Assembly: GCA_017558115.1 (NCBI GenBank)
Contig: JAFYWG010000058.1
Span: 1-51,278 of the forward strand
From: Alistipes sp.
GTDB lineage: Bacteria > Bacteroidota > Bacteroidia > Bacteroidales > Rikenellaceae
DNA: 51,278 nt
Reading direction: 5' to 3'
The position numbers were made by a program, and so were the translations under genes. Below the pieces are notes generated by a model. It did not search any database and had not been told where the DNA came from. It saw only the letters and a program-made list of their open reading frames with translations. This document shows, piece by piece, positions 22,813 through 51,098 of this stretch; positions within the stretch are counted from its first letter, which is position 1; each line of letters starts with the position of its first letter.

Positions 22813-23643
22813 ATGAAGAAGTTTTTATCTAACTCATACATCGCGCTGTTGTTGATGATGCTCTATGCACCTATCATCATCATCGCAATCTTCTCGTTCA
22901 CAGAGTCTAAGGTCTTGGGTAACTGGACAGGCTTCTCGGCAGAGTTGTACACTTCGCTCTTCTCGGGTGGCGTGACCGACCGCCTTGTGGATGCTATTCA
23001 GAACACATTCCTTATCGCCCTTGTTGCTGCTACGGTATCTACGCTGTTGGGTACTGTTGCCGCCATCGGTATCAATGACCTGCGCTACCGCAAGCGTCGT
23101 GCTATCAACTTCGTGAACAACATTCCGATTTTGAACCCCGATATCATCACCGGTATCTCGCTCTTCTTGCTCTTCGTATCGATAGGTATCACGCAGGGCT
23201 ATACCACTGTGATATTGGCACATATCGCCTTCTGTACACCCTATGTTGTGTTGAGCGTCATGCCACGACTCATGCAGATGAACCCCAATATCTACGAGGC
23301 TGCTCTCGACCTCGGTGCTACGCCCATGCAGGCTATGCGCCGTGTCATCATCCCCGAGATTCGTCCAGGCATGATTTCGGGCTTCATTCTCGCCTTCACG
23401 CTCTCTATCGACGACTTTGCCGTTACGATCTTCACCAACGGCACCGACGGCTTGGAGACCCTCTCGACGTTCATCTATGCCGATGCCCGCAAGGGTGGCC
23501 TAACGCCCGAGTTGCGTGCATTGTCTACCATCATCTTGGTTGTGGTGTTGCTGCTCTTGCTCGTTGTAAACTATCGTGCTCACCGCCAGGCAAAGCGCGC
23601 TGAGGAGCAGGCAAAACAGCTTAAAAACTATTCGCGCCGATGA
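22813..23643 (+). CDS. potC: Spermidine/putrescine ABC transporter permease PotC
   Basis: This 276-residue permease has six predicted helices and the EAA loop EAALDLGATPMQAMRRVIIP. The ATG at 22813 (MKKFLSNSYIALLL) is chosen. A longer frame from 22780 overlaps the potB end and would add a non-conserved tail before the first helix. It overlaps potD by four bases (ATGA), so the two are translationally coupled. The central loop FTLSIDDFAVTIFT is typical of PotC. Confidence 0.93.
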   Translation: MKKFLSNSYIALLLMMLYAPIIIIAIFSFTESKVLGNWTGFSAELYTSLFSGGVTDRLVDAIQNTFLIALVAATVSTLLGTVAAIGINDLRYRKRRAINFVNNIPILNPDIITGISLFLLFVSIGITQGYTTVILAHIAFCTPYVVLSVMPRLMQMNPNIYEAALDLGATPMQAMRRVIIPEIRPGMISGFILAFTLSIDDFAVTIFTNGTDGLETLSTFIYADARKGGLTPELRALSTIILVVVLLLLLVVNYRAHRQAKRAEEQAKQLKNYSRR

Positions 23644-25253
23644 AAACACTTAACTATATAATGCGCCTATGTGCCGTTGTGCTATGCTTCGGCATCGTTG
23701 CTACATCGTGTGGCGAGCCCGAGCGTAAGGAGGTCCTTAAGGTCTACAACTGGGGTGACTACATCGATGAGGAGCTTTTGGACGAGTTCGAGGTGTGGTA
23801 CTACGAGCAGACGGGCTGCGAGGTGGAGATTATATACCAGACCTTTGACATCAACGAGGTGATGCTCGCAAAGATTGAGAAGGGCGAGGCCGACTTTGAT
23901 GTTGTATGTCCTTCGGAGTATATCATCGAGCGTATGATGCGCAACAACCTCTTGCAACCCATTGTGGATGATGAGTTCTTGGCAGACCTCGAGGAGACAG
24001 GCACAGAGAACTATCTCGGTTGTGTGTCGCCCTATATCCGCGATCAGTTCGACCACATTATCACCCCCGATAGCACACTCAACGCCAACGACTATGCCGT
24101 CGGCTATATGTGGGGTACTACGGGTATCCTCTTCAACACCGAGAATGTCACCCGAGAGGAGGCTATGTCGTGGGACTTGATGTTCGACGAGCGCCTTGAG
24201 GGTAAGATATTGGTTAAGGATGCCTTCCGCGATGTCTACTCTCCTATGTTGGTGTATGCCAAGACGTTGGAGGCTCGCGATAATGGTATCTTGAAGCCTA
24301 ATGAGACCCTTCCTTTGAATGAGGCCGCAGCCATAGAGCGTGGCCTTGAGGGTAAGGTTCCCACCATTGAGGAGCTTATGTTCGACTCGTCGGATGAGTC
24401 TATCGCCCATGTTGAGGAGTACCTCAAGCGCATGAAGCGCCTCGTGGCGGGCTGGGAGGCCGACTTCGGCAAGGAGATGATGACGCAGAATAAGGCGTGG
24501 ATAAACCTCATGTGGAGTGGCGATGCCGTATGGGCTATCGAGGAGGCCGCAGAGGTGGGCGTGAGCCTCGACTACGTTGTTCCCGAGGAGGGTAGCGTGG
24601 TGTGGTTTGACGGTTGGGTAATACCCAAGTATGCTAAGAATGCACGCGCTGCGCGCTACTTCATCAACTATATGTGTAAGCCCGAGAATGCTGTGCGCAA
24701 TATGGATGCTACGGGCTATGTGAGTGTCGTGGCTACCGAGGAGGTGTTGCGCGCTATGGACCCCATGCTTGCTGCTATGGACGAGGTTGCGGAGGCCATG
24801 GGCGATGCCGATATGGCTTGGTCATGTCCTCTGTGTGGCTTGGATAACTCCGAGATAGAGCTTCTTCAGTCGAAGCGTGATGCACTCCTACAGGAGGAGG
24901 CTGTAGACCTCAGCTACTTCTTTAGGGATGATGAGGGTAACCCCTTGGAGTTCGACATGGGTAACGGCTACATGGTAAATGCCTCAAGCGTATATGTAGA
25001 CCCCATCATGTACCCCGACCAGACGGTAATTGACCGTTGTGCCATGATGCACGACAGTGGCGAGCAGACAGAGAAGATGCTCGAGATGTGGTCGCGCGTC
25101 AAGGGTGACAACCTCTCTCCATGGATGCTCGGTTTTATCATCTTGTCGTTCATGGTCATCGTGGTGTGGGTAGTATGGCGCAAGGTTGATGCCTACCGCA
25201 AGCAGCAGAAGATGCTAAAACGCCGCCATCACGCCCGCAAGCAGCAGAAATAG
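23640..25253 (+). CDS. potD: Polyamine-binding protein PotD with C-terminal membrane anchor
   Basis: The protein captures spermidine or putrescine for the PotABC channel. It begins with a lipobox ending ATSC (Cys24), and the mature part starts with the PotD-like strand KVYNWGDYIDEELLDEF. Family strands such as YAVGYMWGTTGILFNT, NLMWSGDAVWAIEEA and VVWFDGWVIPKYAKN follow in the usual order. It is 537 residues long, about 190 more than E. coli PotD. The excess is in an acidic insert near 215-270, an extra segment near 390-465 with a CPLCG motif, and a C-terminal transmembrane helix (about 497-515, MLGFIILSFMVIVVWVVW) ending in a very basic cytoplasmic tail (KRRHHARKQQK). Binding to the inner membrane at both ends is inferred. 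Confidence 0.9.
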   Translation: MKTLNYIMRLCAVVLCFGIVATSCGEPERKEVLKVYNWGDYIDEELLDEFEVWYYEQTGCEVEIIYQTFDINEVMLAKIEKGEADFDVVCPSEYIIERMMRNNLLQPIVDDEFLADLEETGTENYLGCVSPYIRDQFDHIITPDSTLNANDYAVGYMWGTTGILFNTENVTREEAMSWDLMFDERLEGKILVKDAFRDVYSPMLVYAKTLEARDNGILKPNETLPLNEAAAIERGLEGKVPTIEELMFDSSDESIAHVEEYLKRMKRLVAGWEADFGKEMMTQNKAWINLMWSGDAVWAIEEAAEVGVSLDYVVPEEGSVVWFDGWVIPKYAKNARAARYFINYMCKPENAVRNMDATGYVSVVATEEVLRAMDPMLAAMDEVAEAMGDADMAWSCPLCGLDNSEIELLQSKRDALLQEEAVDLSYFFRDDEGNPLEFDMGNGYMVNASSVYVDPIMYPDQTVIDRCAMMHDSGEQTEKMLEMWSRVKGDNLSPWMLGFIILSFMVIVVWVVWRKVDAYRKQQKMLKRRHHARKQQK

Positions 25254-45901: not shown

Positions 45902-46597
45902 ATGGGAAAATATTACGATATGCTCGCCCAGGATATACGCCTCGTAGAGGGGCTTAAGGCGTGCATGAATTGTGGCGTATGCACTGCAGTGTGTCCCGCA
46001 GCGGAGTTCTACAACTATGACCCTCGCCAGATTGTAGTCATGGTGCAGAGACGTGACGATGAGGAGATAGAACAGCTGCTCAAAAGCGACACTATATGGT
46101 ATTGCGGCGAGTGCATGTCGTGTCGTCCACGCTGCCCACGAGGCAATACGCCGGGTTATGTCATTCAAGCTCTGCGCACGTTGTCGCAGAAGTTAGGCTT
46201 CTTCACTGAGAGCGAGAAGGGACGCCAGCAGTTGGCACTTAAGCGCCTTATTGGCGACAACATCCTCGCCACGGGCTACTGTCTCACGCCGCGCAACATT
46301 CTCCCCGAGTTACACCCCGAGCAGGGTCCCGTGTGGGAGTGGATACACTCAAACGATGAGGCTATCTATGGTCGCTTCTCCGATTGCTATGGCAAGGAGG
46401 GTGCTGGAGCATTGCGCGCGATAGACAAGGAGTCGATGGAGGAGATACGTCGCATCTTCGAGGTGTCGGGAGGTAGGGCCTTCTACGACACCATCGAGGC
46501 TCACTCCGACCGTAAGGCACGCGAGATGGGTTACGACGGCGCAACACAAGAATATATGATGGAGACCTACACGTTAAACTCTGAAAATCACTACTAA
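45902..46597 (+). CDS. HdrC-like 4Fe-4S protein (first gene of Hdr-like operon)
   Basis: The 231-residue cytoplasmic protein carries two [4Fe-4S] motifs: Cys21-x2-Cys24-x2-Cys27-x3-Cys31-Pro and Cys68-x2-Cys71-x2-Cys74-x3-Cys78-Pro. This is the pattern and spacing of HdrC, the small electron-transfer subunit of heterodisulfide reductases. The C-terminal half (about 110-231) has no clusters; it is longer than in methanogen HdrC and may contact the HdrB-like partner. It is four bases ahead of the HdrB-like gene and behind its own promoter. It passes electrons between the flavoprotein and the HdrB-like subunit (by homology). Confidence 0.88.
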   Translation: MGKYYDMLAQDIRLVEGLKACMNCGVCTAVCPAAEFYNYDPRQIVVMVQRRDDEEIEQLLKSDTIWYCGECMSCRPRCPRGNTPGYVIQALRTLSQKLGFFTESEKGRQQLALKRLIGDNILATGYCLTPRNILPELHPEQGPVWEWIHSNDEAIYGRFSDCYGKEGAGALRAIDKESMEEIRRIFEVSGGRAFYDTIEAHSDRKAREMGYDGATQEYMMETYTLNSENHY

Positions 46598-46601
46598 AGG
46601 T

Positions 46602-47690
46602 ATGAGTCGCAGAGCATCATGGCAGGAGTATCAGAAGGATATTGCTGCCGATAGATACTACTATGCGCGTAGCTGCATACGCCAGAACTTCTTCCCCGGA
46701 AGCGAGTGGGCATTCCTTGATATACTATCCAACCGCCTCGGCATCGACATTTATGATGACCCGCTACACACCTCGTGTACGGGCATTGGCTACCACTCCG
46801 ATGTAGTACCCTTGGAGACCATCATGACCGTGGTGGCGCGTCAGTTTTCGCTGATGGCGGAGGCAGGATACGAGAACTTCGTGTCGTCGTGCATAACCTC
46901 GTTTGGCATCTATAACGAGGTGCTGGCAACATGGGAGGAGTTCCCCGAGACCGAGGAGCGCACACGTCGCTATCTGAGGGAGGCCACGGGGCGCGAATTG
47001 GTCAAGCCTCGCTCCATAGCCCACACCTCGGACATCATCTTCTACCAGCGTGAGGCTATTGCGCGCAAGGCGAAGCACCGCCTTATAAATAGACATACGG
47101 GTGAGCCACTTAGGGTGGTGGAGCATATCGGCTGCCACTATGCAAAGATCTTCCCAAAGTCGGGCATCGGAGGCTCGGAGTTTCCATATGTCTTGGCGGG
47201 TATGATAGAGGCGTGGGGTGGTGATGTGGTGGACTACCCCGAGCGTCGTCACTGCTGTGGCTTCGGCTTCCGCAACTACCTTGTGCAGGCAAATCGTGGC
47301 TCGTCTATCGCAAATTCACACAAGAAGTTAGAGAGCATGGCGCCCTATAAGCCCGATTTCATCGTGGCAAACTGCCCTGGCTGCGCAATGTTCTTAGATA
47401 AATGGCAGTACACCATCGCTGAGATGGATGGCATGGCCTATGGCGCCGATGGTAAGGGTATTCCCGTCTTGACATACGAGGAGATGGCGGGCTTGGTGCT
47501 CGGCTACGATCCCTGGCAGCTTGGTATGCAGTTTCACCAGGTGGATGTCGAACCGCTGTTGGATAAGCTCGGCGTGGAGTACGACCCAGGGGCAAAGTAC
47601 CTCGGTGCAGATGGTAAGTATATTGGTAAACCTGCGGATGCTGCAATCAACTGTCCCTCGCAGCGTCCCATATACGAGAGGAGAAAGTAG
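46602..47690 (+). CDS. HdrB-like protein with one intact and one degraded CCG site
   Basis: HdrB binds two non-cubane [4Fe-4S] clusters at two CCG domains (C-x31-38-CCG-x33-34-CxxC) and reduces disulfides. In this 362-residue protein the second site is complete: Cys178, Cys218-Cys219-Gly and Cys258/Cys261. The first site keeps Cys25, Cys59 and Cys97 but has Ser at 58 and Ser at 100, where Cys is expected. It therefore probably holds one normal cluster and an altered or missing second one. The C-terminal 75 residues (DPWQLGMQFHQVDVEPLLDKLGVEY) have the HdrB family look. It is two bases ahead of the flavoprotein gene. Confidence 0.88.
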   Translation: MSRRASWQEYQKDIAADRYYYARSCIRQNFFPGSEWAFLDILSNRLGIDIYDDPLHTSCTGIGYHSDVVPLETIMTVVARQFSLMAEAGYENFVSSCITSFGIYNEVLATWEEFPETEERTRRYLREATGRELVKPRSIAHTSDIIFYQREAIARKAKHRLINRHTGEPLRVVEHIGCHYAKIFPKSGIGGSEFPYVLAGMIEAWGGDVVDYPERRHCCGFGFRNYLVQANRGSSIANSHKKLESMAPYKPDFIVANCPGCAMFLDKWQYTIAEMDGMAYGADGKGIPVLTYEEMAGLVLGYDPWQLGMQFHQVDVEPLLDKLGVEYDPGAKYLGADGKYIGKPADAAINCPSQRPIYERRK

Positions 47691-47692
47691 AT

Positions 47693-48715
47693 ATGGCATA
47701 TAGGGTAGTTGTCGTTGGTGGCGGTGCTGCGGGCATGCAGACGGCCATAGAACTAAAGTCGCGAGGCATAGAGCCCATAATCGTGGAGCGCGACATAGAG
47801 CTTGGAGGTAAGGCGCGTGGATGGTACAAACTATTCCCAACCTTCACCCATGCAAGGGAGGTTATAGGACCTTTGGCTCAGCAAGTTAAGGATATGCACA
47901 TACGATGCTTCTATGGTCAGGAGGTGACGCAGATTGCCCCCGATGGCGTCACGCTACGCTCCGAGGAGCGCATACCTGCCGATGCTGTTGTTGTGGCCAC
48001 GGGCTTCACGCTCTTCGATGCCCATCGCAAGCAGGAGTATGGCTATGGCCTCTATGACAATGTCATCACGTCGGTAGACTTAGAGCGCATGATGATAGGT
48101 GGTAGAGTCACGCTTGCAGATGGCTCTGAGCCTAAGCGTATTGCGATACTACACTGCGTAGGCTCGCGCGATGAAAAGGTGGGGCAGAAGCACTGCTCGA
48201 AGGTATGCTGCATTACGGGTGTGAAGCAGGCGATAGAGCTTAAGGAGATGTACCCCACTGCCGATGTCTTCAATTTTTACATGGATATACGTATGTTCGG
48301 CCCTGGCTACGAGGAGCTATACCGCGAGGCGCAGGAGAGGTACAACGTACACTTTGTGCGTGGCCGCATCTCGGAGGCTGCCGAGACCATAAATAAGCGT
48401 ATACAGATTAAGGCCGAGGATACGCTCACGGGGCGCCCTCTGCGCATGACCGTGGATATGCTCGTGCTGCTTGTGGGCATGAGTGCCAACTACGACAATG
48501 TAAAGCTCGCCGCCTCCGCAGGGTTAGCCTTAGCCCCCAATGGTTACTTCAAGGCGCGCGATGCCTTTCTCGGCGTGGTGCGCAGCGAGAGGGAGGGCAT
48601 CTTCTTTGCGGGCACGGCAACCGCCCCTAAGAGCCTTGCCGATACGCTTGCTGAGGCGTCGCTAACCGCCTCAGCGGTAGATGCGTATCTTAAGGAAAAG
48701 TTTAACATAGAGTAG
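47693..48715 (+). CDS. Short HdrA/QmoA-like FAD oxidoreductase
   Basis: The 340-residue flavoprotein begins VVVVGGGAAGMQTAIEL, an FAD-binding Rossmann motif, followed by GGKARGW and ADAVVVATGF. The centre carries the HdrA/QmoA hallmark HCVGSRDE...HCSKVCC (Cys155, Cys168, Cys172, Cys173), normally an iron-sulfur site beside the flavin. The C-terminal FAGTATAPKSLADTLAEAS closes the FAD fold. It lacks the extra N- and C-terminal ferredoxin domains of full HdrA, which makes it closer to QmoA in size. It would take electrons from a soluble donor or split them between the two HdrC-like arms; the partner is not known. Confidence 0.88.
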   Translation: MAYRVVVVGGGAAGMQTAIELKSRGIEPIIVERDIELGGKARGWYKLFPTFTHAREVIGPLAQQVKDMHIRCFYGQEVTQIAPDGVTLRSEERIPADAVVVATGFTLFDAHRKQEYGYGLYDNVITSVDLERMMIGGRVTLADGSEPKRIAILHCVGSRDEKVGQKHCSKVCCITGVKQAIELKEMYPTADVFNFYMDIRMFGPGYEELYREAQERYNVHFVRGRISEAAETINKRIQIKAEDTLTGRPLRMTVDMLVLLVGMSANYDNVKLAASAGLALAPNGYFKARDAFLGVVRSEREGIFFAGTATAPKSLADTLAEASLTASAVDAYLKEKFNIE

Positions 48716-48719
48716 TGTT

Positions 48720-49055
48720 ATGCGTAACGTAGTATTTGGATATGGCATCAGCCGCCCGCGTGCCATCGACATGGATAATAACGACCTGCGCAAGAGTAGG
48801 GATATCATCGCTGAGATGCCCGAGTTGCAAGCCTGCATAGGTTGTGGCTCGTGCACAGCGTCGTGCACGGCAGGTAACCTCACTGACTTTAACTTCCGTA
48901 AGCTCCACACGGCGGTGCGCCGTGGCGAGTATAAGGGTGTATATGCCGAACTGAGCAAGTGCATGCTTTGCGGTAAGTGCCGTTTGGTATGTCCGCGAGG
49001 CATCAACACGCGTGGCCTTGTAATGCTTATAAAGCGTAAGCTTGGCGACTTCTAA
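48720..49055 (+). CDS. Second HdrC-like 4Fe-4S protein
   Basis: The 111-residue protein has two [4Fe-4S] motifs, CIGCGSCTASC (Cys39, 42, 45, 49) and CMLCGKCRLVCP (Cys81, 84, 87, 91). In size and spacing it is a typical minimal HdrC. It lies four bases after the flavoprotein gene and 12 bases before the membrane fusion gene. It is probably the electron bridge between the flavoprotein and the membrane-bound HdrD module. Confidence 0.9.
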   Translation: MRNVVFGYGISRPRAIDMDNNDLRKSRDIIAEMPELQACIGCGSCTASCTAGNLTDFNFRKLHTAVRRGEYKGVYAELSKCMLCGKCRLVCPRGINTRGLVMLIKRKLGDF

Positions 49056-49067
49056 ACTATTGATGCT

Positions 49068-50876
49068 ATGGAGGATATGCTTATATATTTCGAGCCATTC
49101 ACGCTCCCCTTTGTCGTGGGCTCGCTCTTTATGTTTGTTGTGGTTGCGCTTAAGTGGTCGCTATGGATATTACGCCTACCGCGAGTAGACCGCGCGAAGA
49201 TTCGCCGTGGCCTCTTTACGCGCCAGACGCTCCTCGCAGCATGGGAGGTGGTGCGCGAGTCGCTGCTCCATGTCCGCATATTCCGCACCAACCCCGTGCT
49301 CGGATATATGCACGCCTCGCTCGCCTTTGGCTGGTTTCTGCTTATCGTGGTGGGGTGGATAGAGACTACCGTGTACCTCGGCTTTGAGCCCATACCCCTA
49401 CAGGGTCATGTCTTTTTCAAGTACTTTGCCCCATATCTTGAATTGGAGGGCCACTATCCTGTGTTTGAGCATCTTATGGATGCGCTTCTCATGGTGGTAT
49501 TGATAGGCGTCGGCATCGCCCTCTTTAAGCGTGTGTGCTCATCGGTGATGGGTATGCGTCGCACAACAAAGCATGTGCTCTTCGATAGGGTGGCACTCTC
49601 GGCTCTATGGTTTATCTTCCCCGCACGCCTCGTGGCTGAGAGTCTAACCGTAGCGGTGCATGGTGGCGGTGGCTTCTTAACGGGGTCGCTCGGAGGCCTT
49701 ATGGCAAAGTATATGCCCTATGAGGTCGTCGAGATGCTATACCCGCAGTCGTGGTGGTTCTACTCGGCGGTGCTCGGCCTCTTCTTCGTGGCGTTGCCCT
49801 TCTCGCGTTATATGCACATCTTCACCGAGATACCACTTATCTTCCTGCGCCGCTGGTCGCTACGTCCCACCAAGGAGCGTAAGTCGTACGACAACTTCGA
49901 GGTTGAGGCATGCTCGCGCTGTGGTATATGCATCGACCCATGCCAGCTACAGACCGACCTCGGCATAAACGACACACAGTCAGTATATTATCTGCGCGAT
50001 AGGCGCTACAACATGCTCTCGCTGAAGGTGGCAAACAACTGCCTTATGTGTGGCCGTTGCGAGGCGGCATGTCCCGTGGGTATCAACCTGAACACGCTGC
50101 GCCTAAACTCGAGAGCTAAGCGCCGTAACATCCCTAATGAGGGTCGCTACCGCTACATAAAGGGTATAGACACATCGTCGGGCGAGGGCCGCGTGGGCTA
50201 CTTCGTCGGGTGCATGACATCGCTAACACCCGCTGTGCAGCGCTCCATGGAGCGTATATTCGCCGCTGCAGGGGTGGATGTGTGGTATGCAGATAGGGCG
50301 GGTGGCGTGTGCTGTGGTCGCCCCCTGATGCTCTCGGGCGAGACAGACGCCGCACGTAAGATGGTGGAGTACAACCGTGCACTATTCCGTAAGCACGCCA
50401 TAGAGACACTCGTGACGTCGTGCCCAATATGCCTAAAGGTATTTCGTGAGGAGTACAACCTCGAGGGCATAGAGGTGCTGCACCACACCGAGTATATCGC
50501 GCGCCTTATATCTGTGGGCGACCTGGCACTCGCGGCGGATGATACCTTATATACATACCATGACCCCTGCGAACTTGGCCGCGGCTGTGGTATATACGAC
50601 GCCCCTCGCGTTGTGATAGGTGCGGTGGGAAGGCTCGCCGAGCCCGTGCATAACCGCCGAAATGCACTGTGCTGTGGCGGCTCGTTAGCAAATACGGTCA
50701 TCAACGATGGACAGCAGTGCCGCATAGCCGAGTACATGACAGCGGAGCTTGAGGCAACGGGATGCAACACCATCATCACCGCATGCCCACTGTGCAATAA
50801 GAGCATCGCCCGCGCTGCGCATCGCCCAACAAGGGATATTTCCGAAATTGTAGCAAAAAATATTTTATGCCGTTAG
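49068..50876 (+). CDS. HdrE-HdrD-like membrane-bound iron-sulfur fusion protein
   Basis: The 602-residue protein has about five transmembrane helices in its first 255 residues (about 13-36, 79-104, 133-155, 173-195, 228-250). Histidines at or near the membrane (His82, His134, His250) could bind haem b as in HdrE/NarI. After it come two ferredoxin clusters (Cys282/285/288/292 and Cys325/328/331/335). Two canonical CCG domains follow: Cys382, Cys415-Cys416, Cys452/Cys455; and Cys501, Cys535-Cys536, Cys573/Cys576. Module order matches a fusion of HdrE and HdrD, similar in principle to DsrM-DsrK or QmoC. It would exchange electrons with menaquinone in the inner membrane (inference from the fold). 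It is the last gene of the operon. Confidence 0.9.
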   Translation: MEDMLIYFEPFTLPFVVGSLFMFVVVALKWSLWILRLPRVDRAKIRRGLFTRQTLLAAWEVVRESLLHVRIFRTNPVLGYMHASLAFGWFLLIVVGWIETTVYLGFEPIPLQGHVFFKYFAPYLELEGHYPVFEHLMDALLMVVLIGVGIALFKRVCSSVMGMRRTTKHVLFDRVALSALWFIFPARLVAESLTVAVHGGGGFLTGSLGGLMAKYMPYEVVEMLYPQSWWFYSAVLGLFFVALPFSRYMHIFTEIPLIFLRRWSLRPTKERKSYDNFEVEACSRCGICIDPCQLQTDLGINDTQSVYYLRDRRYNMLSLKVANNCLMCGRCEAACPVGINLNTLRLNSRAKRRNIPNEGRYRYIKGIDTSSGEGRVGYFVGCMTSLTPAVQRSMERIFAAAGVDVWYADRAGGVCCGRPLMLSGETDAARKMVEYNRALFRKHAIETLVTSCPICLKVFREEYNLEGIEVLHHTEYIARLISVGDLALAADDTLYTYHDPCELGRGCGIYDAPRVVIGAVGRLAEPVHNRRNALCCGGSLANTVINDGQQCRIAEYMTAELEATGCNTIITACPLCNKSIARAAHRPTRDISEIVAKNILCR

Positions 50877-51019: not shown

Positions 51020-51092
51020 CGCGGGGTAGAGCAGTTGGCAGCTCGTCGGGCTCATAACCCGGAGGTCGGAGGTTCGAGTCCTCCCCCCGCTA
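51020..51092 (+). tRNA. Initiator tRNA-fMet (CAT)
   Basis: The acceptor stem pairs GCGGGG (51021-51026) with CCCCGC (51085-51090). C1 at 51020 is opposite U at position 72, so the first pair is mismatched as in initiators. The anticodon loop CTCATAA gives anticodon CAT, flanked by three G-C pairs (GGG/CCC), the other initiator hallmark. The T-arm is GGAGG-TTCGAGT-CCTCC. The CCA end is not encoded. An own promoter lies 47 bases upstream and a terminator follows. Confidence 0.95.
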
Positions 51093-51098
51093 CTAAAG

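Follow-up and report, generated by a model that had tools for sequence, protein, structure and literature searches.

Sulfur-oxidising heterodisulfide reductase (sHdr) systems, the closest described relatives of the locus reported here, are encoded as type I (shdrC1B1AHC2B2) or type II (shdrC1B1AHB3-etfAB) gene sets (PMC11582611), are proposed to oxidise protein-bound sulfur to sulfite, and include a gene for the lipoate-binding protein LbpA in the sHdr clusters of all 56 organisms reported (PMC6067878). In a sediment survey, 334 of 406 sHdr sets were assigned to metagenome-assembled genomes of Proteobacteria (PMC12345210). We analysed a 51,278-nucleotide stretch of an Alistipes sp. genome (order Bacteroidales; contig JAFYWG010000058.1; hereafter the window) that carries a five-gene Hdr-like operon, and the genetic link between this operon and sulfonolipid biosynthesis is well supported by gene clustering and by co-occurrence across genomes. 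The encoded complex has, in our estimation, roughly an even chance of being a menaquinone-linked, sHdr-like enzyme that supplies cysteate and sulfonolipid synthesis with sulfite by oxidation of reduced sulfur.

The open reading frame (ORF) list and a position check of the window placed five + strand ORFs in a tight run at 45902-50876, in the order C1-B1-A-C2-ED and with intergenic gaps of 4, 2, 4 and 12 bases:

45902..46597, + strand: C1, 231 amino acids from ATG; HdrC-like, two [4Fe-4S] clusters (family scans)
46602..47690, + strand: B1, 362 amino acids; HdrB-like, presumed catalytic subunit (family scans and alignment)
47693..48715, + strand: A, 340 amino acids; short HdrA flavoprotein, FAD and one [4Fe-4S] cluster
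48720..49055, + strand: C2, 111 amino acids; second HdrC-like protein, two [4Fe-4S] clusters
49068..50876, + strand: ED, 602 amino acids; N-terminal membrane part and HdrD-like part

A first-pass annotation of the window had described a five-gene Hdr-like operon in this order with gaps of 2-12 bases, which ORFs, family scans and conserved ligands confirm, and the gene content likewise agrees with its picture of one short flavoprotein with two arms, a soluble one of HdrBC type and a membrane one of HdrD type. In comparison to that annotation, two elements are new, namely the strong genetic tie between the operon and sulfonolipid biosynthesis, and a sulfite-supply model that we hold to be about as probable as its negation.

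Subunits and relation to described Hdr systems

Family scans scored B1 at 133 bits against NF041780 (HdrB-type; cut-off 450) and A at 252 bits against NF040770 (HdrA-type; cut-off 1100), and because these Hdr-family scores lie far under the curated cut-offs the set is referred to as Hdr-like and not as Hdr. The scan of ED identified a dicluster domain plus two CCG domains, while A was recognised as a flavoprotein of the pyridine-nucleotide-oxidoreductase fold, whose residues 5-327 align with residues 4-334 of the 349-residue chain 6tjr, which we take to be sHdrA of Hyphomicrobium. The extra ferredoxin domains of methanogen HdrA are missing from A. The longest ORF of C1 opens at TTG 45875 according to the ORF caller, and its ATG start is at 45902. 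An HdrB-HdrA gene fusion, considered on account of open frames of 699-714 amino acids in relatives, was rejected, as A begins at a start codon of its own, upstream of which the frame merely stays open. Promoter and terminator scans gave signals at shuffle level.

Subunit alignments of 37-50 rows each, window sequence included, showed that the cluster cysteines are invariant across all five proteins with the single exception of one C1 position, which differs in one of 47 rows. Eight cluster cysteines were thus kept in C1 (47/47 rows, one of them in 46/47), eight in C2 (37/37) and four in A (C155, C168, C172 and C173; 49/49). In B1, the C-terminal CCG site is complete (C178, C218, C219, C258 and C261, in 50/50 rows), whereas the N-terminal CCG site is degenerate and retains only C25, C59 (as S58-C59) and C97, again in 50/50 rows; the motif C-x-T-[ST]-[FY]-G surrounds the third of these N-terminal cysteines in 46 of the 50 Bacteroidales rows. 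ED has 18 cysteines invariant in 47/47 rows, corresponding to two cubane [4Fe-4S] sites and two complete CCG sites, together with His68, His82 and His250, also invariant in 47/47 rows, which are possible candidates for a haem b or quinone site. Residues 1-271 of ED gave no Pfam match at E 0.01, and since the membrane call for this half is based on hydropathy and the three invariant histidines, 'HdrE' is used for it as an architectural label only.

The operon and sHdr have the C1-B1-A order and the short HdrA in common, and the two HdrC-type proteins are also a property of sHdr type I. sHdr has two HdrC-HdrB pairs beside one HdrA, whereas the second arm of the Bacteroidales operon consists of C2 and the membrane HdrD-like fusion, and not of C2B2 or B3 plus EtfAB; EtfAB is not in the operon, and Etf matches occurred in 1/138 Bacteroidales loci (L112). 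Type II sHdr-like clusters were also observed beyond Bacteroidales, in two other genomes of the phylum (loci of G045 and G127; L105:1231-12171 and L106:1891-11127), where the gene content comprised C1, B1, A, B3-like, EtfBA, membrane HdrD-like, GcvH-like LbpA and DsrE-like genes. Identity of the window proteins to the L105 cluster was 33% for C1, 29% for B1 and 36% for A. C25, C59 and C97 of B1 are also present, in similar local motifs, in both sHdrB1 sequences from L105 and L106, so that the reduced N-terminal site is likely a shared signature of B1 and sHdrB1 as judged from these two sequences, while C258 of B1 is Asp in both. The presumed sHdrH of L105, used as query, had no match near the operons, but this query misses L106 too. 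In one genus mate a GcvH-like gene lies on the opposite strand about 2 kb downstream of the operon (L042:14444-14827).

Methanogen HdrABC has homologous A, B and C subunits and shares with the operon the [4Fe-4S]/FAD core of HdrA, but its HdrA is long and contains ferredoxin domains that A does not have, and its HdrB chains have CC plus CxxC at the N-terminal CCG site where B1 keeps three of five cysteines. With neither a long HdrA nor an HdrB with two complete CCG sites, and with scores far below cut-offs, the operon does not belong to HdrABC, and to our knowledge no coenzyme M/B chemistry is to be expected in Bacteroidales hosts. Like methanogen HdrDE, ED combines a membrane part with HdrD-like cubanes and two CCG sites, and it differs from HdrDE in being one fused chain, in being encoded with an HdrA/HdrBC half and in showing three, not four, invariant membrane histidines (47 rows). 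The QmoABC and DsrMK complexes of sulfate reducers also combine a membrane part with an HdrD/HdrC-like redox chain to menaquinone. QmoABC has two flavoproteins, QmoA and QmoB, in comparison to the one of the operon, and one HdrA match was found in the window's own genome (85% complete); C1 scored 51 bits against QmoC (cut-off 300) and ED 43 bits against DsrK (cut-off 400). The first-pass annotation had set the arrangement against HdrABC, HdrDE, QmoABC and DsrMK, and had not noticed that the soluble half comes closest to the C1-B1-A set of sHdr.

Sulfonolipid genes in the same genomes and beside the operon

The sulfonolipid (capnine) pathway is described as cysteate synthase, cysteate fatty acyltransferase (CFAT), ketoreductase and N-acylation (PMC10191378, PMC11211663). 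The substrate of cysteate synthase is phosphoserine, which loses its phosphate by elimination and takes up sulfite (PMC12713407). No Hdr-like complex and no quinone-linked step is named in the available parts of the pathway descriptions (PMC10191378, PMC11211663). Set against the enzymes of this pathway (CapA/Cys, CapB/SulA/CFAT and CapC/KCR), the neighbours of the operon in relatives encode CFAT, a short-chain dehydrogenase/reductase (SDR) and either cysteate synthase or a pyridoxal phosphate (PLP) enzyme related to it.

Among 393 Bacteroidales genomes, counting the window's own, B1 was found in 127 and ED in 122, and each genome with ED also has B1. CFAT was present in 116/122 ED-positive genomes in comparison to 33/80 genomes sampled at random from the 191 of the order that lack B1 and the TIGR03844 cysteate synthase (odds ratio 27.5, p 6.8e-18), a contrast that overstates the true one because it omits the ED-negative genomes with cysteate synthase, and CFAT was present in 13 of the 14 tested among these. 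The comparison within TIGR03844-negative genomes is the fairer test, and here CFAT occurred in 77/80 genomes with ED and 33/80 without (odds ratio 36.6, p 5.5e-15); the ED-positive genomes with TIGR03844 had it in 39/42. Three of the six ED-positive genomes without CFAT are 76-82% complete. Counted by family, CFAT was found in 50/52 ED-positive and 28/50 sampled ED-negative families, and within the window's genus in 24/25 genomes. These co-occurrence statistics ignore the relatedness of the genomes. As a control for the CFAT test, the sulfate-activating CysD was not positively associated with ED (46/75 with ED, 54/71 without). Genomes with the operon are thus nearly always able to make sulfonolipids, and the reverse does not hold.

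Physical linkage was surveyed in a set of 60 loci, fetched before the sulfonolipid link was suspected, and in the best 80 of at least 568 relatives of ED from a scan of named genomes ('named loci'), ranked by their similarity to the ED of L115, itself part of a sulfonolipid-type cluster; the two sets overlap (L155 is the contig of L115, and L175 that of L119). Annotation of the neighbours identified a TIGR03844 cysteate synthase downstream of ED (460.9 bits, cut-off 324.9) and, upstream of the operon, a BioF/serine palmitoyltransferase-like acyltransferase and an SDR. Against the solved Cysteate-C-fatty acyltransferase 28eh the acyltransferase scored 596 bits, and against 7u7h, presumably SulA, it scored 636 bits; since both values are far above the 237 bits to serine palmitoyltransferase we regard it as a true CFAT. 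CFAT (at least 250 bits) was present in the fetched flank of 27/80 named loci, 25 by called ORFs, a rate that is biased upwards because the loci were ranked by the ED of the cluster-borne L115. The order C1 B1 A C2 ED CFAT PLP-enzyme SDR VOC was found in 9/80 named loci (L212, L213, L217, L218, L220, L222, L225, L226 and L227, with extra ORFs inside L220 and L227), and at least three further orders of sulfonolipid genes were seen (L155-L158 with L160; L199; L187/L189/L197/L205). The commonest companion gene, in 47/80 named loci, encodes a two-VOC-domain protein (PF00903) of about 356 amino acids (e.g. L155:6991-8061).

Sulfonolipid-type flank genes also occurred in 6/60 loci of the earlier set, and the TIGR03844 type followed ED in L050, L051 and L100. 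In four genomes of family f9 (G032, G636, G716 and G778) 29-122 bases separate the matches to TIGR03844 and ED, and 11/122 ED-positive genomes from six families have such a gene within about 6 kb of ED (7 CFAT, 4 TIGR03844). G022, of the window's genus, carries at L050 a divergent island of VOC-CFAT-SDR-C1-B1-A-C2-ED-cysteate synthase and has a second CFAT elsewhere in the genome, which indicates that the whole set probably moved as one unit. The window's own operon is unlinked, as no CFAT, cysteate synthase or other sulfonolipid gene was found inside the 51 kb window; its genome has a cysteate synthase on contig C21 (474.6 bits, cut-off 324.9) and a CFAT fragment on contig C52 (473 bits).

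Proposed function and alternatives

We propose that C1-B1 and C2-ED would form two arms on flavoprotein A in a single membrane-attached complex. In analogy to sHdr chemistry, B1 would oxidise a probably carrier-bound persulfide or sulfane sulfur, derived from sulfide or cysteine, to sulfite, and electrons would pass from B1 through C1, A, C2 and ED to menaquinone. The sulfite would be consumed by cysteate synthase, either of the TIGR03844 type or, in clustered genomes, a threonine-synthase-like PLP enzyme, after which CFAT and then ketoreductase would act to give capnine-type sulfonolipids. Sulfite supply is the reading suggested by two published statements in combination, namely that sHdr is proposed to make sulfite and that cysteate synthase consumes it. 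The complex assembly, electron order, menaquinone partner, sulfur substrate, sulfite product and direction are all what we infer from gene content and homology. Midpoint potentials are about -116 mV for sulfite/sulfide, -74 mV for menaquinone and -320 mV for NAD, so that oxidation of sulfide to sulfite should be feasible with menaquinone and not with NAD. The broader reading, in which the operon represents a third, membrane-bound and LbpA-free sulfur-oxidising Hdr used in biosynthesis, where strict anaerobes oxidise sulfide-level sulfur with menaquinone as acceptor to build the sulfonate head group of outer-membrane sulfonolipids, falls slightly short of an even chance.

Several observations weigh against sulfite supply by an sHdr-like complex. 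In an HdrA tree of 36 sequences (residues 90-334), the sHdrA clade had a support of 100 and a split of support 98 grouped sHdrA with long HdrAs, while the Bacteroidales A sequences formed a group separate from sHdrA (deeper branching without resolved order). In the flanks searched, a GcvH-like (LbpA) gene was found at 1/80 named and 1/58 other loci, and a DsrE-like sulfur carrier at none of the 80 and 58. Three features of sHdr are present (the C1-B1-A order, the short HdrA and the reduced N-terminal site of B1) and three are absent (A within the sHdrA clade, C2B2 or B3-EtfAB, and LbpA in the cluster). The operon is not to be filed as sHdr, although it may work like sHdr.

The genetic evidence also has its counterweights, beginning with the ranking bias in the CFAT-flank rate of the named loci. 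Neither CFAT nor TIGR03844 lies within about 6 kb of ED in 111/122 ED-positive genomes, many of whose assemblies are fragmented. For the PLP enzyme found in the clusters, threonine synthases give better scores than cysteate synthases, both by family model (149 bits, cut-off 303, versus 108 bits to TIGR03844, cut-off 324.9) and by solved structure (80 versus 47 bits), so that its assignment as cysteate synthase derives from gene position. ED and TIGR03844 are weakly associated (42 genomes with both, 80 with ED only, 62 with cysteate synthase only and 209 with neither; odds ratio 1.77, p 0.012), and with an odds ratio this low a strict co-occurrence of the two was rejected. CFAT occurs without the operon in the 33/80 sampled genomes and 13/14 tested cysteate-synthase genomes given above; a within-family stratified CFAT test over 14 mixed families was not significant, and seven genus mates without detectable A all keep CFAT, so that loss within the genus does not support strict dependence.

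CysD would be expected to be rarer alongside the operon if the latter had replaced sulfate assimilation as the sulfite source. Among cysteate-synthase genomes this was observed (24/42 with ED versus 31/38 without, p 0.029), whereas the other CFAT-positive genomes showed no difference (22/33 versus 23/33, p 1.0) and the pooled result for 146 carriers of cysteate synthase or CFAT gave p 0.074; taken together, these comparisons do not add to the case for sulfite supply by the operon. CysD had no match in the window's genome (85% complete) or in three of four family mates tested from other genera.

The first-pass annotation had suggested a redox link between menaquinone and a disulfide or thiol pool, or a soluble donor. 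The conserved Hdr-like operon that it described has proved real, the link to sulfonolipid biosynthesis favours a sulfur substrate over a generic disulfide pool, and its interpretation as a whole is partly supported. In a generic thiol/disulfide module, menaquinone would exchange electrons with a low-molecular thiol or with a disulfide of a protein, and the connection to sulfonolipids would be indirect, for example through redox balance. Sites of the HdrB/HdrD family act on disulfides in methanogen Hdr, two complete CCG sites are kept in ED and a sulfur carrier was not found beside the operon, all of which would suit such a module, but CFAT/PLP/SDR/VOC clusters in several orders and the CFAT association point to a pathway role and make it unlikely. 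It strikes us as quite unlikely that there is no sulfur substrate at all and that the complex feeds electrons into a different reaction of sulfonolipid or envelope lipid metabolism, or acts as a shunt from a soluble donor (NADH or ferredoxin) to menaquinone. The pyridine-nucleotide-oxidoreductase fold of A would fit this, and the two-VOC protein of 47/80 named loci may be another lipid enzyme, yet the degenerate site of B1 is common to sHdrB1 and the capnine pathway, in the parts of its descriptions available, is without a quinone-linked step (PMC10191378, PMC11211663).

The same gene clustering would fit equally well with a complex running in reverse, as a menaquinol-dependent reductase that converts sulfite, or sulfite released from cysteate, to sulfide for detoxification or balance. 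Sulfite is toxic, and its couple with sulfide lies close to menaquinone in potential, so that the reaction could run both ways. On the other hand, we know of no six-electron sulfite reduction by an Hdr-type site, and a sirohaem sulfite reductase was not among the annotated neighbours. As the sHdr relatives are moreover proposed to be oxidative (PMC6067878), this direction is in our judgement very unlikely.

If sulfite supply by the complex is true, Hdr-type chemistry would have a part in anabolism beyond methanogens and sulfur lithotrophs, and the operon may be how many gut and sediment Bacteroidales make sulfite for sulfonolipids. In gut Alistipes and Odoribacter, sulfonolipids have been discussed as bioactive and immune-modulating lipids (PMC10191378, PMC11211663). 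The word 'sulfite' is absent from the main text of three sulfonolipid papers (PMC9304779, PMC11211663, PMC10191378), and the source of the sulfonate sulfur in anaerobes therefore looks open, with subscription literature mostly outside this check. Searches that likewise left out most subscription papers found no paper joining sulfonolipid with heterodisulfide reductase, or sulfonolipid with cysteate synthase and sulfite. With a conserved complex, probably quinone-linked, that accompanies the sulfonolipid pathway, the question of the sulfur source becomes directly testable.

Conservation, sub-modules and surroundings

Beyond the order, B1 matches at E 1e-30 were obtained in only two of 391 other genomes of the phylum, G045 and G127, both of them weak. 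The best 80 of the named relatives are all titled Bacteroidota or subgroups thereof, including two Alistipes sp., Tidjanibacter, Tannerella sp., Paludibacter and a Marinilabiliales. Whether the five genes are conserved together, a check proposed in the first-pass annotation, was answered largely in the affirmative, as 18 of the first 20 relative loci carry all five genes in an identical order and contig ends cut off the remaining two, indicating that the arrangement is not due to chance. All five genes were present in 50 of the wider set of 60 loci and inside the fetched stretch in 56/80 named loci. Synteny is not absolute, since C2-ED alone was found locally in 9/80 named loci, two of them with a contig end no more than 1.5 kb away, and a C1-B1 pair without A, C2 and ED beside it in 5/60 loci. 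Many, mostly rumen, genomes among the named loci have the order C1-C2-ED-B1-A, which together with the C2-ED-only loci indicates that C2-ED and B1-A behave as sub-modules. The C1-B1 pairs standing without the rest are as follows:

L094:8991-10694: C1-B1 pair
L097:9708-11479: C1-B1 pair
L099:9505-11258: C1-B1 pair
L113:8292-10079: C1-B1 pair
L088:8618-10432: C1-B1 pair

The pairs of L094, L097 and L113 sit among relatives of Nitro_FeMo-Co, MinD-type NTPase, DUF134, CGGC and radical SAM proteins, which suggests a second use of the C1-B1 module.

Further neighbours, namely the upstream thymidylate synthase/DHFR genes of genus mates, the likewise upstream two-component genes of some families, and MsbA-like/purB genes, were set aside as lineage synteny. 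In the window, a divergent SusC-like gene (called by eye) lies upstream of the operon and a tRNA-Met (cat) at 51020-51093 directly downstream, neither of which offers a functional clue. The protein encoded at 23640-25253 of the window has a below-cut-off likeness to the spermidine/putrescine-binding PotD/PotF and perhaps belongs to a polyamine transporter operon.

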